A stretch of 40,165 nt of DNA from Chitinophagales bacterium. GTDB lineage: Bacteria; Bacteroidota; Bacteroidia; Chitinophagales; CAIODY01. Position 1 is the first letter of the stretch; the number at the start of each line of letters is the position of its first letter. Shown piece by piece: positions 22,736-37,013 of the stretch. The notes under the pieces were generated by a model. That model saw nothing but the letters and a program-made list of their open reading frames with translations, had not been told where the DNA came from and made no database searches. The stretch is from assembly GCA_026461075.1 (NCBI GenBank), contig JAPJNH010000042.1, forward strand, positions 1 through 40,165, in the 5' to 3' direction. The position numbers and the translations under genes were made by a program.

Positions 22736-23287
22736 ATGAAAATCTATACTAAAAAAGGCGATACAGGAACAACGCAATTGATTGGAGGAACACGCGTTCC
22801 TAAACATCATTTACGTATTGAAACCTATGGAACAGTAGATGAATTGAATTCGCATATCGGTCTTCTAATAGAATGGATTCAAGATGACGCAACCCGTAAA
22901 ACATTGCAATCTGTCCAAGATCGCTTGTTTACGATGGGATCTTTATTGGCCGCTGATCCGGAGGCTTCGAAAATGAAGTTGCCGCAGTTACACGATGCAG
23001 ACGTTGTGTTATTAGAAGGTGAAATAGATCGCATGACTGATTTATTGCCTGCCATGACGCATTTTATTTTGCCAGGTGGCAGTCCTGCCGGAGCACAAGC
23101 GCATATCACGCGTTGTGTTTGTCGTCGCGCAGAACGCCTAATTACGCATTTGAATGAAGAAAGCCCTGTAGAGGAAATCATCATTCGTTATATCAATCGC
23201 TTGTCAGATTATTTCTTCACTCTTGGACGCTTTGCTTTGCACCTCACAGGTCATGAAGAAGTGAAGTGGATTCCACGAATGGATTAA
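22736..23287 (+). CDS. Cob(I)yrinic acid a,c-diamide adenosyltransferase, PduO type
   Basis: 183 aa. The N-terminus KIYTKKGDTGTTQLIGGTRVPK is the ATP-binding loop of PduO-type enzymes, followed by YGTVDELNSHIG, then ILPGG and CRRAERLI with the conserved Arg. It transfers the adenosyl group of ATP to cob(I)alamin to make coenzyme B12 for enzymes such as methylmalonyl-CoA mutase. No other cobalamin gene and no cobalamin riboswitch is nearby. It is cotranscribed with gap and shares TTAA stops with the convergent plug gene. Confidence 0.93.
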   Translation: MKIYTKKGDTGTTQLIGGTRVPKHHLRIETYGTVDELNSHIGLLIEWIQDDATRKTLQSVQDRLFTMGSLLAADPEASKMKLPQLHDADVVLLEGEIDRMTDLLPAMTHFILPGGSPAGAQAHITRCVCRRAERLITHLNEESPVEEIIIRYINRLSDYFFTLGRFALHLTGHEEVKWIPRMD

Positions 23288-24534
23288 CGCATGGAGTGAA
23301 AATTATTCACCCCCACTAATTGATCATATCTCCCGGAAAAGGAACGATAGTACACTAAAATTGTGTACTCGTTTTCTGTCTCATACCAATTGCCTTCTGC
23401 TGTTGAGAAGTCGAATCGGCCATCGCCACCAGCAGTGCCAATCAGATATTCGTAATAACCGTTTTTTAAGAACAAATCGAGATCATAGCCTTTGGTAGAT
23501 GGATTATACTTAAACTCATAATCCTTACTGAATTCATACTGACTAGCCTGCCCACACCAAAATAATTGAGCTTCGTTCAGCAAAGGGGAGGCATAATGAA
23601 AATGCGCTAAAACATAATCTGCTTCGGTATTTGGATTATTGGTTTCTTGTTTTTCAATATAAAACTCACCATTATAATCTTTGTTATAAACGTAGTTTAC
23701 ATTGGCTCTGCATGGATCGCTTTGGATATATACATTCGGAGGGGTAGTAGTATTGTCATTGCGTTGAACCCCCATGCCTGCAAATCGAATGGTGCGGATA
23801 TCCACTCTTCTAAATTCTTTTCCAGCAGGAAAAACGGCGTCCATGTCGCAGTTGTATTTTAAGACATTATCATTAAAATACATCGGCTGAATATTCGTAA
23901 TGGCGTTCGCCCAGATTTGATTTTGTAGAATAACCACTTTAATATCCTCCATCGGATTGGCCATATTGATTCCGCCCGCATTTACTGTAAAATCAATTTC
24001 TTGATGTGTTCTAAGCAAACTGTTGTTTCTTGGGCGGATACAATTCGCTATGATAGCCGCTTGTGCGTCGATGACGAGCAAACGCTTCGTTAATATGACA
24101 TTGCCATTGTCGAAGTCTTTGATTTGAATGATATAATTGCCACTTTTTTTAAACTTACATTGCTCATTCGGAAAGCTGATTGTATAATGCGTATAAGGAG
24201 TTTCTGTATTAAACGAACGCTGATAATTGTTGATAGAGTTTTCTGCAAAACCATCGATACAATCATATGCGTTTAAAGTGGCGCTCGTCCAATCCCAGTT
24301 ACAAGGAATAATTGCGTAACGCAAGGCGCGGGTATCTGTACTTAAATCGTCAAAGTCAATATCAATAGGAACCCCACCATTTAAGGCGGTAATCGCCAAT
24401 GTCGCATCTAATCCCGCTTGGGTACATTTTACGGTTTTAATCTTCGGATCATAGATTCGATCTTTCCAAATCGATTCCTCTGCTCGTGAAGCGAACGATA
24501 GTATAAAAAAACAGATTATCAAGAGGAGACGCAT
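23284..24534 (-). CDS. T9SS plug protein (DUF5103 family)
   Basis: 416 aa with a signal peptide ending FASRA. The beta-rich N-terminal plug domain runs from IYDPKIKTVKCTQAG through YTISFPNEQCKFKKSGNYIIQI. The C-terminal half has the family signature ILVYYRSFSGRYDQLVGVNNF; the xGxRYDxLVG ending is characteristic of this group. In the SprA translocon structure, a Plug protein closes the periplasmic side of the pore, so this gene probably encodes the gate. A -7-like element (TATCTTCG) ends four bases before the ATG, beside the divergent mazG promoter. Confidence 0.85.
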   Translation of the reverse strand: MRLLLIICFFILSFASRAEESIWKDRIYDPKIKTVKCTQAGLDATLAITALNGGVPIDIDFDDLSTDTRALRYAIIPCNWDWTSATLNAYDCIDGFAENSINNYQRSFNTETPYTHYTISFPNEQCKFKKSGNYIIQIKDFDNGNVILTKRLLVIDAQAAIIANCIRPRNNSLLRTHQEIDFTVNAGGINMANPMEDIKVVILQNQIWANAITNIQPMYFNDNVLKYNCDMDAVFPAGKEFRRVDIRTIRFAGMGVQRNDNTTTPPNVYIQSDPCRANVNYVYNKDYNGEFYIEKQETNNPNTEADYVLAHFHYASPLLNEAQLFWCGQASQYEFSKDYEFKYNPSTKGYDLDLFLKNGYYEYLIGTAGGDGRFDFSTAEGNWYETENEYTILVYYRSFSGRYDQLVGVNNFHSMR

Positions 24535-24589: not shown

Positions 24590-25375
24590 ATGGATGCTGT
24601 CAATACTACCGAAAAGCAATCGTTTTATCGTTTAGTGCAAATAATGGAAGATTTGCGCGAGAAATGTCCTTGGGATCGTAAACAAACGATTCATACTTTG
24701 CGCACCTTGACCATCGAAGAGATGTATGAAATGGGGGATGCTATTCTTCAGGAGGATTGGACAGATTTGAAAAAGGAGCTCGGTGATTTAATGTTACACC
24801 TGGTGTTTTATGCGAAAATTGCGTCTGAAGAAGGACATTTTGCTATCGGCGACGTGATAGAATCTATTTGTGAGAAATTGATTTTTCGTCATCCGCACGT
24901 ATATGGTGAATTGCAAGTGGAGAATGAAGATGAAGTAAAACGTAACTGGGAACAGCTTAAATTGAAGGAAGGGAATAAGTCAGTGCTAGGCGGTGTCCCT
25001 AAAGGATTGCCAGCTATGGTGAAAGCGCTTCGTATGCAAGAGAAAGCAAAACAGGTAGGCTTCGAATGGGATACTGCCGAACAAGTTTGGGAGAAAGTGA
25101 AAGAAGAAGAAGGCGAGTTTAAGGAAGCATTAGCATCCGAGGATAAAGCTGCTGCCGAAGAAGAGTTTGGAGATTTGCTCTTCTCCTTGATAAATTATGC
25201 ACGTTTCAAAAACATTGATCCTGAAACAGCTTTGGAAAAGACCAACCAAAAGTTTTTAAGACGCTTTCAAGGGATGGAACAGATCGCGGCTTCGGAAGGT
25301 AAAAGTTTCGCATCGATGAACCTTCAAGAAATGGATGCGCTTTGGAATCAAATTAAATCTACTGAAAATAAATAA
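24590..25375 (+). CDS. mazG: Nucleoside triphosphate pyrophosphohydrolase
   Basis: 261 aa with two MazG domains. The first has RxKCPWDRKQTIHTL, EEMYEMGDAI (E-x-x-E metal site) and KKELGDLMLHLVFYAKIA; the second has EEEGEFKEAL and EEEFGDLLFSLINYARF. Both acidic motifs are intact. The enzyme hydrolyses NTPs to NMP and pyrophosphate, often cleaning the nucleotide pool. It leads a tight cluster (12-base gap to the arginase-like gene, then one base to the lipoprotein). A -7-like TATTTTTA ends four bases before the ATG. Confidence 0.95.
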   Translation: MDAVNTTEKQSFYRLVQIMEDLREKCPWDRKQTIHTLRTLTIEEMYEMGDAILQEDWTDLKKELGDLMLHLVFYAKIASEEGHFAIGDVIESICEKLIFRHPHVYGELQVENEDEVKRNWEQLKLKEGNKSVLGGVPKGLPAMVKALRMQEKAKQVGFEWDTAEQVWEKVKEEEGEFKEALASEDKAAAEEEFGDLLFSLINYARFKNIDPETALEKTNQKFLRRFQGMEQIAASEGKSFASMNLQEMDALWNQIKSTENK

Positions 25376-25387
25376 AGATATTTTAAT

Positions 25388-26563
25388 ATGTCATCTGCTA
25401 ACGATTTAACACTATTAAACGATTTTTTAAGTCCTGTTGATTCGGCTACTATCGAAGCTAATCACGCGCTCAACCCATATTTAATGGGCGCCAATATTCA
25501 ATACTTCGATGGTCAAGAATTACCAAACATAGAAGCTACGCGTATCGCAATTATCGGCGTGAGCGAACAAAGAAATGTGGTGAACAACCACGGTACCGCA
25601 GATGCTCCGCAAAAAGTAAAACAAGAGTTTTATCAATTGTCCGCTTTCAATGATTATACTAAAATCATTGATATGGGCGAAATCAAAGCCGGCGCAACAC
25701 CGAAGGATACTTACTTCGGACTAGCGAAGGTTTGTAGTATTTTGTTAAAGCTAGGAATGATTCCTGTGGTGATTGGCGGCTCGAATGATTGTGCGTATGG
25801 TCATTTTATGGGCTATCAAGAGCAAGAGCAAGATATTCATTATGTACACGTAGACGCTCGATTAGATCTTAGCTTTTTGCAAGAAGATATTTTGGCCAAT
25901 ACTTTTTTGTCGAATGTAATTACGCATAAGCCTAACTACTTAAAGCATTTTCAATTATTAGGTTATCAATCTTATTTGTTGGATTATAACTTGATGAAGG
26001 TATTAGGGCAGTTAAAATTTGATGCTACTCGTTTGGGTGCTTTGCAAGAAGATTGGAAGGAAATGGAGCCACATGTGCGCGATGCAGATTTGGTAACGAT
26101 TGATATCTCTGCGGTACGTGCAAGTGAGGCACCAGGTAATGGAAACGCTTCGCCGAATGGCTTTTTCGGAGACGAAATATGTGCGATGGCACGTTATGCT
26201 GGAATGAGTGATCGTGTAAGTTCTTTTGGTATTTATGAAATCAATCCACATCTCGATTTACGCAATACGACTGCACAATTAGCCGCACAAATGATTTGGT
26301 ATTTTATTGATGGCGTTTTGCATAGAGTAGCGGATTATCCAATCATCAATGAAAATGATTTTATCCATTATCATCTTATGATGGAAGATACGGGCGAACA
26401 GATGCAGTTTTTAAAGAGCCGTAAAAGTAGCCGTTGGTGGATTAAAGCAAAACTGCCAGGTAGCGAACGTCATAAACTGATTCCATGTTCGTATCAAGAT
26501 TATTTGATGGCGACACGCAATGAGTTGCCGGAGCGCTTTTTGAAAGGACTTGAATTAATGTAA
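25388..26563 (+). CDS. Arginase/formimidoylglutamase-fold protein with degenerate metal site
   Basis: 391 aa with the ureohydrolase fold: TRIAIIGVSEQRNV at the start, IPVVIGGSNDCAYG, YVHVDARLDLS, LVTIDISAVRASEAPG and FGIYEINPHLD. In arginases these align with GGDH, DAHxD and D-x-D motifs. Here the six Mn ligands read N133 (for His), D156, R158 (for His), D160, D239 and S241 (for Asp), so three of six are replaced. That argues against a normal two-manganese hydrolase. The gene is in the mazG-lipoprotein unit. Bacteroidota genomes hold a family of formimidoylglutamase-annotated proteins; I cannot say whether all share these changes. A catalytic role with another metal, or a structural role, is possible. 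Confidence 0.75.
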   Translation: MSSANDLTLLNDFLSPVDSATIEANHALNPYLMGANIQYFDGQELPNIEATRIAIIGVSEQRNVVNNHGTADAPQKVKQEFYQLSAFNDYTKIIDMGEIKAGATPKDTYFGLAKVCSILLKLGMIPVVIGGSNDCAYGHFMGYQEQEQDIHYVHVDARLDLSFLQEDILANTFLSNVITHKPNYLKHFQLLGYQSYLLDYNLMKVLGQLKFDATRLGALQEDWKEMEPHVRDADLVTIDISAVRASEAPGNGNASPNGFFGDEICAMARYAGMSDRVSSFGIYEINPHLDLRNTTAQLAAQMIWYFIDGVLHRVADYPIINENDFIHYHLMMEDTGEQMQFLKSRKSSRWWIKAKLPGSERHKLIPCSYQDYLMATRNELPERFLKGLELM

Positions 26564-26564
26564 G

Positions 26565-26987
26565 ATGAAAAAGAGTGAAGTTCTTATTGGCTTACTAGCC
26601 GTTCTTTCTTTAAATGCTTGTCATTTGCATTGGGGCTTGCATAAACACAAGCAAGCTATTTCCGAAGAAGAAATGGATCCTCCGAGAGAAGAGTACGTTC
26701 ACGTTGTTCCTAATTGGGTAAAACAACAAATAGAAATTCTAAAAACTGCGCCACCCTATAGAACGGGCAAGAAAATGATTTTGGAATACCGCTATCAATA
26801 TAATTACGTCTACTATATTCCTGCTGATTGTTGCGATCAGTTGAATCCATTATATGATGAGTTCGGAAAGAAAATCTGTGCGCCGGATGGAGGCTTCACT
26901 GGTAAAGGGGATGGCCGTTGCCCTGATTTCGATCGAGCATCGCAAAGCCCAACTATTATTTGGATGGAAGAATCGCCTGCTAAATAA
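26565..26987 (+). CDS. Lipoprotein of unknown function
   Basis: 140 aa. The signal peptide ends LSLNAC with the lipobox Cys19. The mature part is acidic and then has VKQQIEILKTAPPY, a strongly aromatic YRYQYNYVYYIPADCCDQLNPLYDEFGKK stretch, ICAPDGGFTGKGDGRCPDF, and several cysteines that could form disulfides. It is probably outer-membrane or periplasmic. The gene starts one base after the arginase-like stop, so it is in that operon. I do not recognise the family with certainty. It ends one base before the convergent fmt. Confidence 0.65.
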   Translation: MKKSEVLIGLLAVLSLNACHLHWGLHKHKQAISEEEMDPPREEYVHVVPNWVKQQIEILKTAPPYRTGKKMILEYRYQYNYVYYIPADCCDQLNPLYDEFGKKICAPDGGFTGKGDGRCPDFDRASQSPTIIWMEESPAK

Positions 26988-27925: not shown

Positions 27926-30517
27926 TTAACGCCAAACGATTTCATCACAAAATAACCAAGAAGGATTCACTGCTCCTTTACTTTCTTTCGGGCAAGGACC
28001 AGGATTATAAACTTTCACACGCAGATATTTGCCTGTTACCCCTAAAAGGTCGATTTCGAAGTCGTCGGTTTTTCTTTGACCATTCTCTTCTTTCGGCAGT
28101 TCGTTGTATTCATGAATAAATGATTTAACCACCTGATTGTTGGAGTCTAATACTATCACGGAAACTTTTCTTGGGAAATAAATCCAATCGTCAGGAGAGG
28201 CCAAACAATGGACCATCGCTTGGTGTAGTTCTTCATTTTTGGGAAGGTCAATGGTGACATCGATATCCTTATTAAAGAATCCTTGCCAATTGCCGTCGCT
28301 GAAATCGTAAAAGGATATTTTACCGTCTGTCAGAGAAAGATCGCCTTGCGCCGGATAATTTGAATCGTAGTGGGAATTATAATGAACCACTGCATTGGTG
28401 TCTTTTCGATAGGCGTATCCGTAGGTGCTCTGGTGTTGGAATACGGCATTATAAATATGATTCATTCGATTCCACAAGGGAATTTGAATGATTGGCTTTT
28501 CTTGGGCTTTATTTTCTTGATCAAAAACCGCTCGCGTTACAATGCGCACAGTCGCTCCACCAGCCTTAGCCAAGCTCATTGTAAAGGTATCGCTAGCTTT
28601 AATCGCAATATAATTCACACTAAAATCTCTTGGTCGTGATTGCCATTGCGTGCTCCGATTGTCGCTAAATATCGTAGCTACATATTCTTGCTTGGTCGAC
28701 AAGAAATCTAATGGAACCTTTATCTGATATGCATTTTCATCGGCAATAGCTGCGACATACCAAATGCTATCTTGTTTTGTAGTTTGTAAAGCTCGTGTCA
28801 CTACATAGTCACCCGGACGCGACTGAATTACTTTTCTGTCTTGCCAAACCGGTGGAATATTCGCCATGAATTTAAAAGCTTCTGTATACTCTTTTCTGTA
28901 ATTTGAATAAGTGAAAATATCTTGCGCTAGCATGCTCATCGGACTGTAAAGCACCACATACAAGGCAATTTCATGCGCTAATGTTGTATAGCCTCTCTTT
29001 CTGTGTTCTGTATTATTAAATAAGTTGAGTAATCCTGGAGTATAATCAAATGCACCAGCAAATTGTCTTGTGAACGGTAAGACCGTTGCATAGTAGGGTG
29101 GAAGGCCTTTATAGGTGGCATTCCATTCATTTCCGCGTCCTGCCTCCTGTGTAAGCAAATTCGGCCAGGTACGTTCAATACCGCTTGGCATAATGCTTTC
29201 GTGTACATCCAAACAGATTTCATATTTCGCCGCTAGTTCAACGATTTTTTGAAAATGTTCGATTTGTGCTTGACCATATTCCATGCCAACTCCGGCATAT
29301 CCTGTTTTAAGATAGTGTACCCCTTTTTTGTGTAGGTCTTTAAAAAGACTTTCTGCAATGCTGTCATAATGCTTGTATTCTGCTTGCGTCTCGTGATGGG
29401 CAATCCAATTTACATTCTTCTCTTTTGCATAGCGCAATACTTCATCCCAAGTGAAATCAGTGGCTGCTTTGGCAAAATTTTGTTTGGAGTGGTTAGAGGT
29501 GCCGTAGTTGTCCCATCCGCTATTCCACCCCTCTGTTAAAGTGCCCCCTAGATGAAATTCATTAGCGAAGGCAATATATTCTTTAGCTCTCTTGGTAGTA
29601 GCACCATGCGCTTTTCCTTCTGGCCAAGTTAAAATTCCTTCATGCATTTCCCACCAGATGCCATTAAACGTAAGCGGCTTAATCCAGCTAGTATTAGCAA
29701 TTTTACAAGCTTCGTTCAAGCTGCTGATCACTTTTGAATTAGCAATGTCAGCGGCCGTATTTCCGAATGAAATTACACGCCATGGCGTGGTGAAGCAATA
29801 CTTTCGCATAAATAGGGAATCATCGCTGCCGTAACGGAGACGAGTTTCCAATTGATGATATTCATTGCTTTGTAAGTCGCTCAGTGGGTACTGTAATAGA
29901 GCGGCTTCGTGAATAACATACCAAAGACTGTCGCCACGATGTCCTAGAAAAGGGGTGTTTACGAGGGTGCTTATATTTTCTATCAACCCATTTTTATACA
30001 ATCCTTCGAAGGCAAAGCAATCACTGGGTATCCACCAGGCAGAGTCTGTCGCTGGAAATGGATAATTACTTTGATCTCCGTAATAACTTTGAGTATAACT
30101 AATAACCTTGAAACGATAGGCTAGCGCTTTATCGAAAACACGAAATTCTAAGGTACATCGACTCGCGCTATTTAAACTGTCCTTACGCTTAAAATAATAT
30201 TCCTTTTTATTGTAAATATTACTGATAAATTCTCCGCTCAAAGGATCCGTCCAAGAGTCATCTACTTTTGTAAACGGACTGCAATGGCTATAAGCAAATT
30301 GCTGGTCGAGGTTCAAGTTTTTATCTTGAAGCAATGCACATTTTGCATGCTGCAGTAGGGCTATTTTGTGGTAATAAATTGAAAAATGCGCTTGTGCAGA
30401 CAATGCGCTAGGGTTGATAAACAACTCTGTTTCATTATGAGGCGAACTTAAATCTTGTCCCTTAGCACAAAAGCCGAGGAGTATTAAGATTAGCAAACAT
30501 TGAATTCGGAGCAGCAT
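27926..30517 (-). CDS. Glycoside hydrolase family 97 (SusB-like inverting group) with extra C-terminal module
   Basis: 863 aa with a signal peptide (ending GFCAKG). N-terminal beta-sandwich, then a (beta/alpha)8 barrel with LTEGWNSGWDNYG, WIAHHETQAEY, VHYLKTGYAG, CLDVHESIMPSGIERTWPN, TQEAGRGNEW. E440, E458 and E464 align with the calcium and catalytic Glu residues of SusB (E508, E526, E532), so this is the inverting alpha-glucosidase-type subgroup, not the retaining one. Beyond a normal C-terminal sandwich there are about 190 residues (675-863) with SLTDGKISFYDF, VTIDLPKNEE, RKVSVIVLDS and KYLRVKVYNPGPC, like the discoidin-type domain found in some hexosaminidases. Acts on alpha-glucans or alpha-galactosides, probably periplasmic. 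No sus-like genes are adjacent. Confidence 0.9.
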   Translation of the reverse strand: MLLRIQCLLILILLGFCAKGQDLSSPHNETELFINPSALSAQAHFSIYYHKIALLQHAKCALLQDKNLNLDQQFAYSHCSPFTKVDDSWTDPLSGEFISNIYNKKEYYFKRKDSLNSASRCTLEFRVFDKALAYRFKVISYTQSYYGDQSNYPFPATDSAWWIPSDCFAFEGLYKNGLIENISTLVNTPFLGHRGDSLWYVIHEAALLQYPLSDLQSNEYHQLETRLRYGSDDSLFMRKYCFTTPWRVISFGNTAADIANSKVISSLNEACKIANTSWIKPLTFNGIWWEMHEGILTWPEGKAHGATTKRAKEYIAFANEFHLGGTLTEGWNSGWDNYGTSNHSKQNFAKAATDFTWDEVLRYAKEKNVNWIAHHETQAEYKHYDSIAESLFKDLHKKGVHYLKTGYAGVGMEYGQAQIEHFQKIVELAAKYEICLDVHESIMPSGIERTWPNLLTQEAGRGNEWNATYKGLPPYYATVLPFTRQFAGAFDYTPGLLNLFNNTEHRKRGYTTLAHEIALYVVLYSPMSMLAQDIFTYSNYRKEYTEAFKFMANIPPVWQDRKVIQSRPGDYVVTRALQTTKQDSIWYVAAIADENAYQIKVPLDFLSTKQEYVATIFSDNRSTQWQSRPRDFSVNYIAIKASDTFTMSLAKAGGATVRIVTRAVFDQENKAQEKPIIQIPLWNRMNHIYNAVFQHQSTYGYAYRKDTNAVVHYNSHYDSNYPAQGDLSLTDGKISFYDFSDGNWQGFFNKDIDVTIDLPKNEELHQAMVHCLASPDDWIYFPRKVSVIVLDSNNQVVKSFIHEYNELPKEENGQRKTDDFEIDLLGVTGKYLRVKVYNPGPCPKESKGAVNPSWLFCDEIVWR

Positions 30518-30570: not shown

Positions 30571-30654
30571 TGCCCAAGACGAGATTTGAACTCGTACACC
30601 CTTTCGGGCGCTACCACCTCAAGGTAGTGCGTCTGCCAGTTTCGCCACCTGGGC
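30571..30654 (-). tRNA. tRNA-Leu (anticodon GAG)
   Basis: An 84-base class II tRNA. The acceptor stem GCCCAGG pairs with CTTGGGC (one G-T pair). The anticodon arm CTACC-TTGAGGT-GGTAG has GAG at positions 34-36, reading CUC and CUU. A long variable arm (CGCCCGAAAGGGTGT) and a T arm ACGAG-TTCAAAT-CTCGT follow. CCA is not encoded, as is usual in this phylum. It is divergent from fabD. Confidence 0.95.
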
Positions 30655-35516: not shown

Positions 35517-37013
35517 ATGTCTCACGCGATTTCAAACAATCATCTATCGATTACCCAACTTCGTCATATATGGAAGAATCGCATTCCGTTGACGATTTCA
35601 GAAGAAAGTAAAAAACAGATCAACCATTGCCGTCAGTTCTTAGAAACGAAACTGGCTGACGTAGAACGTCTTTATTATGGGATTAATACGGGCTTCGGTT
35701 CGCTTTGTAATGTACGTGTGAGTCCGGATGAATTGGAAGACCTTCAGTACAAATTGGTTGTAAGCACGGCTTGCGGTATCGGAGACGAAATCGATCCAGA
35801 AATTACGCGTCTTTTACTTATTCTGAAAGCACAGTCCTTAAGCTATGGCTATTCGGGTATCTGTCTAGAAACAGTTGAATTGCTAATCAAATGCTATAAC
35901 GAAGATTTGTTGCCAATCATCTACGAACAAGGTTCTCTAGGAGCTTCTGGCGACCTTGCTCCTTTGGCACACATGGCTTTAGCTATGATGGGAATTGGTG
36001 ATTGTTATTTGAAAGGTAAACGTATGCCTGCGGCTGAAGCCTTGAAAACTATTGGTGCTAAGCCTGTTGTTTTACAATCTAAAGAAGGCTTAGCTTTATT
36101 GAATGGTACGCAATTTATGAGCGCGCACGCTTGTTTCTGCCTATTCAAAGCAATGGATATGTTAGAACTAGCGGATGCAGTGACTGCTATTTCAGTCGAT
36201 GGCTACGATTCTAAAGCAGAGCCATTTACTGATACGATTCATTTGATTCGTCCGCATGCCGGACAAATACATACCGGAGCAACGATTTTAAAATGGTTGA
36301 AAGGTTCTGAAATTATTCAACAAACGAAACAACAAGTACAAGATCCTTACAGCTTCCGCTGCGTACCACAAGTACATGGTGCAAGTAAAGATGCGATTGC
36401 ACAAGTGATTCGCGTCGTTGAAACAGAAATCAACTCCGTTACAGATAATCCAATCGTAGACCCTGCTAACGACCGTATCCTATCTGGTGGTAATTTCCAC
36501 GGACAGCCACTAGCCTTGCATCTTGACTTCCTTGCTATTGCAGTCGCTGAATTAGCAAATATCTCAGAACGTCGTATCTATCAGATGTTGAATGGTGGAC
36601 GTAACTTGCCTGTCTTCTTAGTAGATAAGCCAGGATTGAATTGTGGTCTGATGATTCCGCAATATACGGCAGCTGCTATCGTTAGTCAGAATAAACAATT
36701 ATGTACCCCCGCTTCGGTAGATAGTATCGTGAGCTGTAACGGACAAGAAGATCATGTTAGCATGGGCGCAAATGCCGCTACAAAATGTGTTCGCGTAATG
36801 TATAATACCGAACGTGTATTAGCCATTGAATTATTGACAGCTGTACAAGCATTGGATTTCCGCAAGCCGTTGAAATCATCTCCTGCGATTGAAGTGATTC
36901 GTGAAGAGTATCGTAAAGTGGTGCCGTTCATCACAGAAGATCGAGTTTTTCATGATGATATGGTGAAGAGTGTTGAATTCGTACGCTCTCGTAATTGGTC
37001 AGCCCCAGAATAA
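35517..37013 (+). CDS. Histidine ammonia-lyase family protein, substrate uncertain
   Basis: 498 aa. It has the MIO prosthetic-group triad A143-S144-G145 in GSLGASGDLAPLAH, the catalytic Tyr in YYGINTGFG, RCVPQVHG, NFHGQPLAL and QEDHVSMG with the Glu that binds the substrate imidazole in HutH. However, the position of His83 of Pseudomonas HutH, normally in an SHAxG motif, is Thr84 here (LVVSTACGIG). This is the main selectivity residue of the family. There are no hutU, hutI or hutG genes nearby. It is cotranscribed with rsmB. HutH is the likely automatic annotation, but another aromatic substrate or an aminomutase is possible. Confidence 0.8.
   Translation: MSHAISNNHLSITQLRHIWKNRIPLTISEESKKQINHCRQFLETKLADVERLYYGINTGFGSLCNVRVSPDELEDLQYKLVVSTACGIGDEIDPEITRLLLILKAQSLSYGYSGICLETVELLIKCYNEDLLPIIYEQGSLGASGDLAPLAHMALAMMGIGDCYLKGKRMPAAEALKTIGAKPVVLQSKEGLALLNGTQFMSAHACFCLFKAMDMLELADAVTAISVDGYDSKAEPFTDTIHLIRPHAGQIHTGATILKWLKGSEIIQQTKQQVQDPYSFRCVPQVHGASKDAIAQVIRVVETEINSVTDNPIVDPANDRILSGGNFHGQPLALHLDFLAIAVAELANISERRIYQMLNGGRNLPVFLVDKPGLNCGLMIPQYTAAAIVSQNKQLCTPASVDSIVSCNGQEDHVSMGANAATKCVRVMYNTERVLAIELLTAVQALDFRKPLKSSPAIEVIREEYRKVVPFITEDRVFHDDMVKSVEFVRSRNWSAPE

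Follow-up and report, generated by a model that had tools for sequence, protein, structure and literature searches.

The locus described here raises the question of why a gene for a protein of the arginase fold is retained when several of the residues that would be expected to hold the manganese ions have been replaced. The gene lies on a contig of a Chitinophagales bacterium that was analysed over a stretch of 40,165 nucleotides (hereafter, the window), and the features discussed below are collected in Table 1. The explanation that we consider probable is that the product is a metal-free pseudo-formimidoylglutamase, that is, a cytoplasmic binding protein that derives from a HutG-like ancestor and would have no ureohydrolase activity. 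The pseudoenzyme status of this protein is well supported; the absence of ureohydrolase activity, the binding role and the nature of the partner are what we infer.

Table 1. Features of the locus, with positions numbered from the first nucleotide of the window
Feature	Position	Strand	Remarks
Type IX secretion plug protein (PF17116)	23284-24534	-	oriented divergently from the mazG operon
mazG (NTP pyrophosphohydrolase)	24590-25375	+	upstream neighbour within the putative operon, confined to this genus
Predicted metal-free arginase/HutG-fold pseudoenzyme gene	25388-26563	+	391 aa; arginase-fold domain and C-terminal module
Degenerate motif 1, GGSND (G130-G131-S132-N133-D134)	25775-25789	+	N133 codon at 25784-25786; first metal His position
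Degenerate motif 2, DARLD (D156-A-R158-L-D160)	25853-25867	+	R158 at the second metal His position
Family-specific block FDxxRLG...EPxxR	26018-26080	+	residues 211-231
Degenerate motif 3, DIS (D239-I-S241)	26102-26110	+	S241 at the metal Asp position
C-terminal module	26318-26560	+	residues 311-391; signature RWW...PC.Y.DY..A....P
Putative lipoprotein, DUF6970 (PF22311)	26565-26987	+	several Cys; downstream neighbour within the putative operon, confined to this genus; fast-evolving
Glycoside hydrolase family 97 gene	27926-30517	-	among the least conserved window genes within the genus (65%)
tRNA gene (Rfam RF00005)	30571-30654	-	
HutH-like aromatic amino acid lyase (PF00221)	35517-37013	+	97% identical to the same-genus copy

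Fold, motifs and conservation of the gene

Translation of the open reading frame places N133, R158 and S241 exactly where the preliminary description had located three replaced ligands out of six, and the remaining metal aspartates, D156, D160 and D239, likewise occupy the positions assigned to them. Within GGSN, N133 replaces a histidine, whereas S132 does not count as a lost ligand, given that the HutG enzymes, the closest relatives with an intact site, read GGGH[DE] in this motif. An asparagine at the position of the first metal-binding histidine is found also in the formiminoglutamase of Trypanosoma cruzi (a Foldseek match with ‘N114H variant’ in its entry title), which leaves R158 and S241 as the telling replacements. 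No signal peptide of the 391-aa protein is apparent by eye.

The claim that the arginase fold is otherwise intact is borne out by profile and structure comparisons. The protein scores 90.4 bits with the Pfam family Arginase (PF00491), for which the cut-off is 22, and so belongs to the superfamily. The best curated family is HutG (profile TIGR01227), with 94.7 bits, below the cut-off of 229.15; the agmatinase and arginase profiles yield 42.3 and 21.9 bits, respectively. HutG-like genes of the same phylum whose motifs are intact score 176 to 211 bits with TIGR01227, somewhat under the cut-off too. The AlphaFold2 model, for which the input consisted of 47 aligned sequences of the family, adopts the arginase fold with a mean pLDDT of 92.2, and a Foldseek search started with this model identifies metformin hydrolase and formiminoglutamases as the best matches (E-values of 1e-16 to 1e-17; TM-score of 0.83, by target length, to the T. 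cruzi structure 4mxr).

The gene had been described as free of signs of decay, and comparison with G592, a genome of the same genus that is syntenic with the window, is in full agreement with this view. The protein is identical to its orthologue in G592 at 382 of 391 positions (97.7%), while 65% of the four-fold sites of the gene differ, which is about saturation. The gene thereby ranks among the top few of the 35 window genes in conservation, level with those for an SdhB-like protein, a pyridine nucleotide oxidoreductase and HutH, whereas its immediate neighbours are much less conserved (mazG 87%, the lipoprotein gene 73%). Such strong purifying selection, together with a loss of ligands that extends over the entire family (see below), supports the proposal that the protein is kept for another use.

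The family and its metal site

Among 296 sampled genomes of the phylum, strong-scoring long homologues are confined to the host class (Bacteroidia), and the best matches in other classes are weaker and correspond mostly to open frames of 300 to 390 aa. The HutG-type motifs are intact in the seven other-class matches that were inspected; the other-class relatives L127-L132 and L135 combine GGGHE or GGGHD with DAHLD-type motifs. Beside some of the other-class relatives lies a gene of ~420 aa that, judging by its length and the start of its sequence, we take to be a putative hutI. Within the class, the family profile matches 264 of 278 good genomes, the weakest of these matches possibly being other members of the superfamily. 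In a phylogeny that also comprises HutG, arginase and agmatinase sequences, and from which L183 and L185 (wrong reading frames) and the long-branch row L120 were excluded, the family makes up one side of a 100/100 branch. The family is monophyletic, has a single origin in the class and is clearly affiliated with HutG. Some genomes that carry the family gene also encode HutG-like paralogues with GGGH[DE] and DAH[FL]D motifs.

The C-terminal module is kept in all family members tested, mostly with the pattern RWW...PC.Y.DY, and is absent from HutG enzymes and from the intact-motif relatives L127-L132 and L135. When it was modelled in isolation (pLDDT 82), four strands and two helices were predicted. 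Pfam searches with the module gave scattered weak matches only, and the best Foldseek match in the PDB has an E-value of 0.9. An SH3-like fold, at which a weak sequence similarity to spectrin hinted (E-value of 0.02), received no support in the fold search.

A survey of 47 divergent members of the family reveals that the loss of the metal site is real, common to the family and beyond chance. Position 133 is Q in 37 members and N in 3, with the nuance that 7 have H; position 158, with 13 residue types, is free to drift; and position 241 carries S, G, N or T, never D. The six-ligand set of an active Mn-dependent ureohydrolase is incomplete in the 391-aa protein and family-wide. An alternative metal site that relies on other histidines, of the kind that would have overturned the preliminary description, is not conserved in the family, as none of the aligned columns is a near-invariant histidine.

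In two clades, the erosion extends further. D156, D160 and D239 are all lost in L116-L119, and most of the metal half is lost in L121-L124, which belong to the same order as the window genome; all members of both clades keep the C-terminal module with the aromatic positions in register, and all except L124 keep EPxxR. Because these eroded clades retain the C-terminal module and mostly EPxxR, it follows that selection has kept the scaffold and a new surface, not the metal site. The conserved surface of the family consists of FDxxRLG, EPxxR, C265, RYAGxSDK, QMxWYF, RWW, PC and DY.

Candidate functions and gene context

In the scenario that we favour, a HutG-like (formimidoylglutamase) ancestor would have lost its two-metal hydrolytic centre and gained the 80-residue C-terminal module; hydrolysis of ureohydrolase substrates would have been abandoned, and the arginase fold would have been retained as the scaffold of a cytoplasmic binding protein. 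The conserved elements listed above other than C265, with RWW, PC and DY contributed by the C-terminal module, would form a new surface that binds a partner, which is probably a protein or a nucleic acid present almost throughout the class. Most lineages would still form the old pocket (D134, D156, D160, D239 and E284), in which a stabilising ion or a small ligand may be bound.

The degree to which this pocket is conserved speaks against a pure scaffold: the three Asp ligands, E284 and D134 each recur in between 43 and all 47 of the members (D156, D239 and E284 in 46 each, D160 in 43), more than a scaffold needs, so that binding of a metal or ligand may persist. The family could conceivably consist of ligand sensors, in which the old pocket, including Q or N at position 133, would bind a cation, for instance a compound of the guanidino or formimino type or one divalent ion, while the C-terminal module would signal this state to a partner. 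The near-invariance of the pocket acids in most of the family is compatible with this possibility, as is the retention of E284, the counterpart of the conserved Glu in HutG; however, the C-terminal features persist in L116-L119 after the loss of D156, D160 and D239 and in L121-L124 after that of most of the metal half, and we regard a sensor as rather unlikely.

The preliminary description had the gene cotranscribed with mazG and a cysteine-rich lipoprotein gene. In this genus, the gene for the type IX secretion system (T9SS) plug on the reverse strand is followed by mazG, the family gene and the lipoprotein gene on the forward strand, and an operon of these three genes is plausible from the gaps of 12 bases and 1 base and from the same order in G592; in a promoter scan, matches were no more frequent than in shuffles. 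The linkage to mazG and the lipoprotein gene is missing even within the taxonomic family (L155, L163), and both genes, which stay beside the family gene only within the genus, were rejected as a clue to function. Outside the genus, the neighbours are different: among 80 loci with record titles, the gene directly before the family gene, on the same strand, is topA in 57 of 78, and the one directly after it is porP or gldK in 36 of 76. In a Flavobacteriales genome (L042), gldM and gldN appear as a tandem duplication downstream of the family gene. It may tentatively be suggested that this near-universal core protein of the class is a pseudo-formimidoylglutamase with a C-terminal module of its own that was recruited as a regulator or structural partner into a process shared by the whole class, possibly chromosome topology (topA) or the T9SS/gliding motor (gldKLMN). 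Across the class, the gene often lies between topA and gldKLMN, an arrangement that would bring a role in a process particular to the class within reach of experiment.

A narrower role, in which the protein would assist the type IX secretion/gliding machinery as an accessory factor, is unlikely. T9SS genes occur within 10 kb of the family gene in 36 of the 80 loci, and 54 of 79 genomes (those in both class-wide tables; hand count) have gldL no more than 5.5 kb away. The family gene is still near gldK in the eroded L122-L124, and the window genome has a type IX secretion system, with the plug gene facing the operon of the family gene. However, adjacency to topA is commoner, the linkage may represent inherited gene order, and the plug gene, which was rejected as a partner, is near the family gene only in this genus (G000 and G592). 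The genetic linkage to T9SS core genes, seen in many lineages, does not extend to the window genome, where porP-gldKLMN is on another contig (C12) and the family gene is not adjacent to it. Strict dependence on T9SS is contradicted by co-occurrence exceptions in both directions: G517 and G347 keep the family gene without GldL or SprA, and G443, G469, G492, G190, G249, G388, G571 and G311 have GldL and SprA without the family gene.

It is very unlikely that the protein has remained catalytically active by means of a single metal or of unusual ligands. The retention of D156, D160 and D239 and the asparagine of the T. cruzi formiminoglutamase would fit such an enzyme, but the diversity of residues in the second His column, the consistent replacement of the last Asp and the lack of a conserved His in the family do not. 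Furthermore, the formimidoylglutamate step, which might otherwise have created a metabolic need for HutG, is covered in the window genome by FtcD (373 bits; L170 on contig C47), and the window itself carries the HutH-like gene (Table 1), so that histidine breakdown needs no HutG role of the family protein.

Highly improbable, too, is a non-catalytic subunit that would activate a canonical ureohydrolase, by analogy with the activation of MetCa by MetCb. The top-ranking structural matches include chains of metformin hydrolase, and the window genome encodes two other members of the superfamily, L001 and L002, both with intact motifs and thus apparently intact ureohydrolases. However, the family gene is the sole representative of PF00491 in seven near-complete genomes (G099, G138, G214, G261, G538, G557 and G517), so that no active paralogue is needed; these genomes rule out a heteromer with an active ureohydrolase as the general role, and no ureohydrolase gene was seen adjoining the family gene. 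Finally, a decaying pseudogene, which the loss of catalytic residues could suggest, is effectively refuted by the protein identity with G592 at saturated synonymous sites and by the fact that almost every near-complete genome of the class has a match to the family.

A near-universal gene of the class, one of the best conserved of the 35 window genes compared, has lost the chemistry that is typical of its fold. Members of the family are presumably labelled formimidoylglutamase in public annotation by fold similarity; if so, many genomes carry a wrong functional label.

Comparison with known systems

No earlier description of the family was found in the literature searched. Arginases and agmatinases (L001, L002 and SpeB from Escherichia coli) have the superfamily fold in common with the family but differ in the full ligand sets, as seen in L001 and L002, in their location on the opposite side of the 100/100 branch and in the absence of the C-terminal module. 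HutG enzymes (TIGR01227; e.g., 3m1r from Bacillus subtilis, 1xfk from Vibrio cholerae and 4mxr from T. cruzi) adopt the same fold and provide the best-scoring profile; N67, G130-G131, D156, D160, Q194, E284 and D290 are common to HutG and the family, and the first loop is similar in HutG-like genes of the same phylum. In contrast to HutG, the family protein scores far under the profile cut-off, has three ligands replaced and possesses ~80 extra C-terminal residues.

Arginase-fold pseudoenzymes are already known, although among those found none is class-wide or carries this C-terminal module. An arginase-like protein of Trypanosoma brucei, according to the account cited in PMC11271267, has no manganese cluster and an elusive function; it likewise combines the arginase fold with the lack of a binuclear cluster but is eukaryotic, and the likeness is one of description only. 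The arginase domains of some Fusobacteriaceae are mentioned as further pseudoenzymes of this fold (cited in the same paper). A further parallel comes from MetCb/MfmB, the solved metal-free arginase-family subunit of metformin hydrolase that activates MetCa (PMC11271267). Like the family protein, for which it is a close structural match, MetCb is an arginase-fold pseudoenzyme with lost metal ligands; however, the MetCb gene is paired with that of the active subunit, whereas the family gene is single, also in genomes where there is no active partner.
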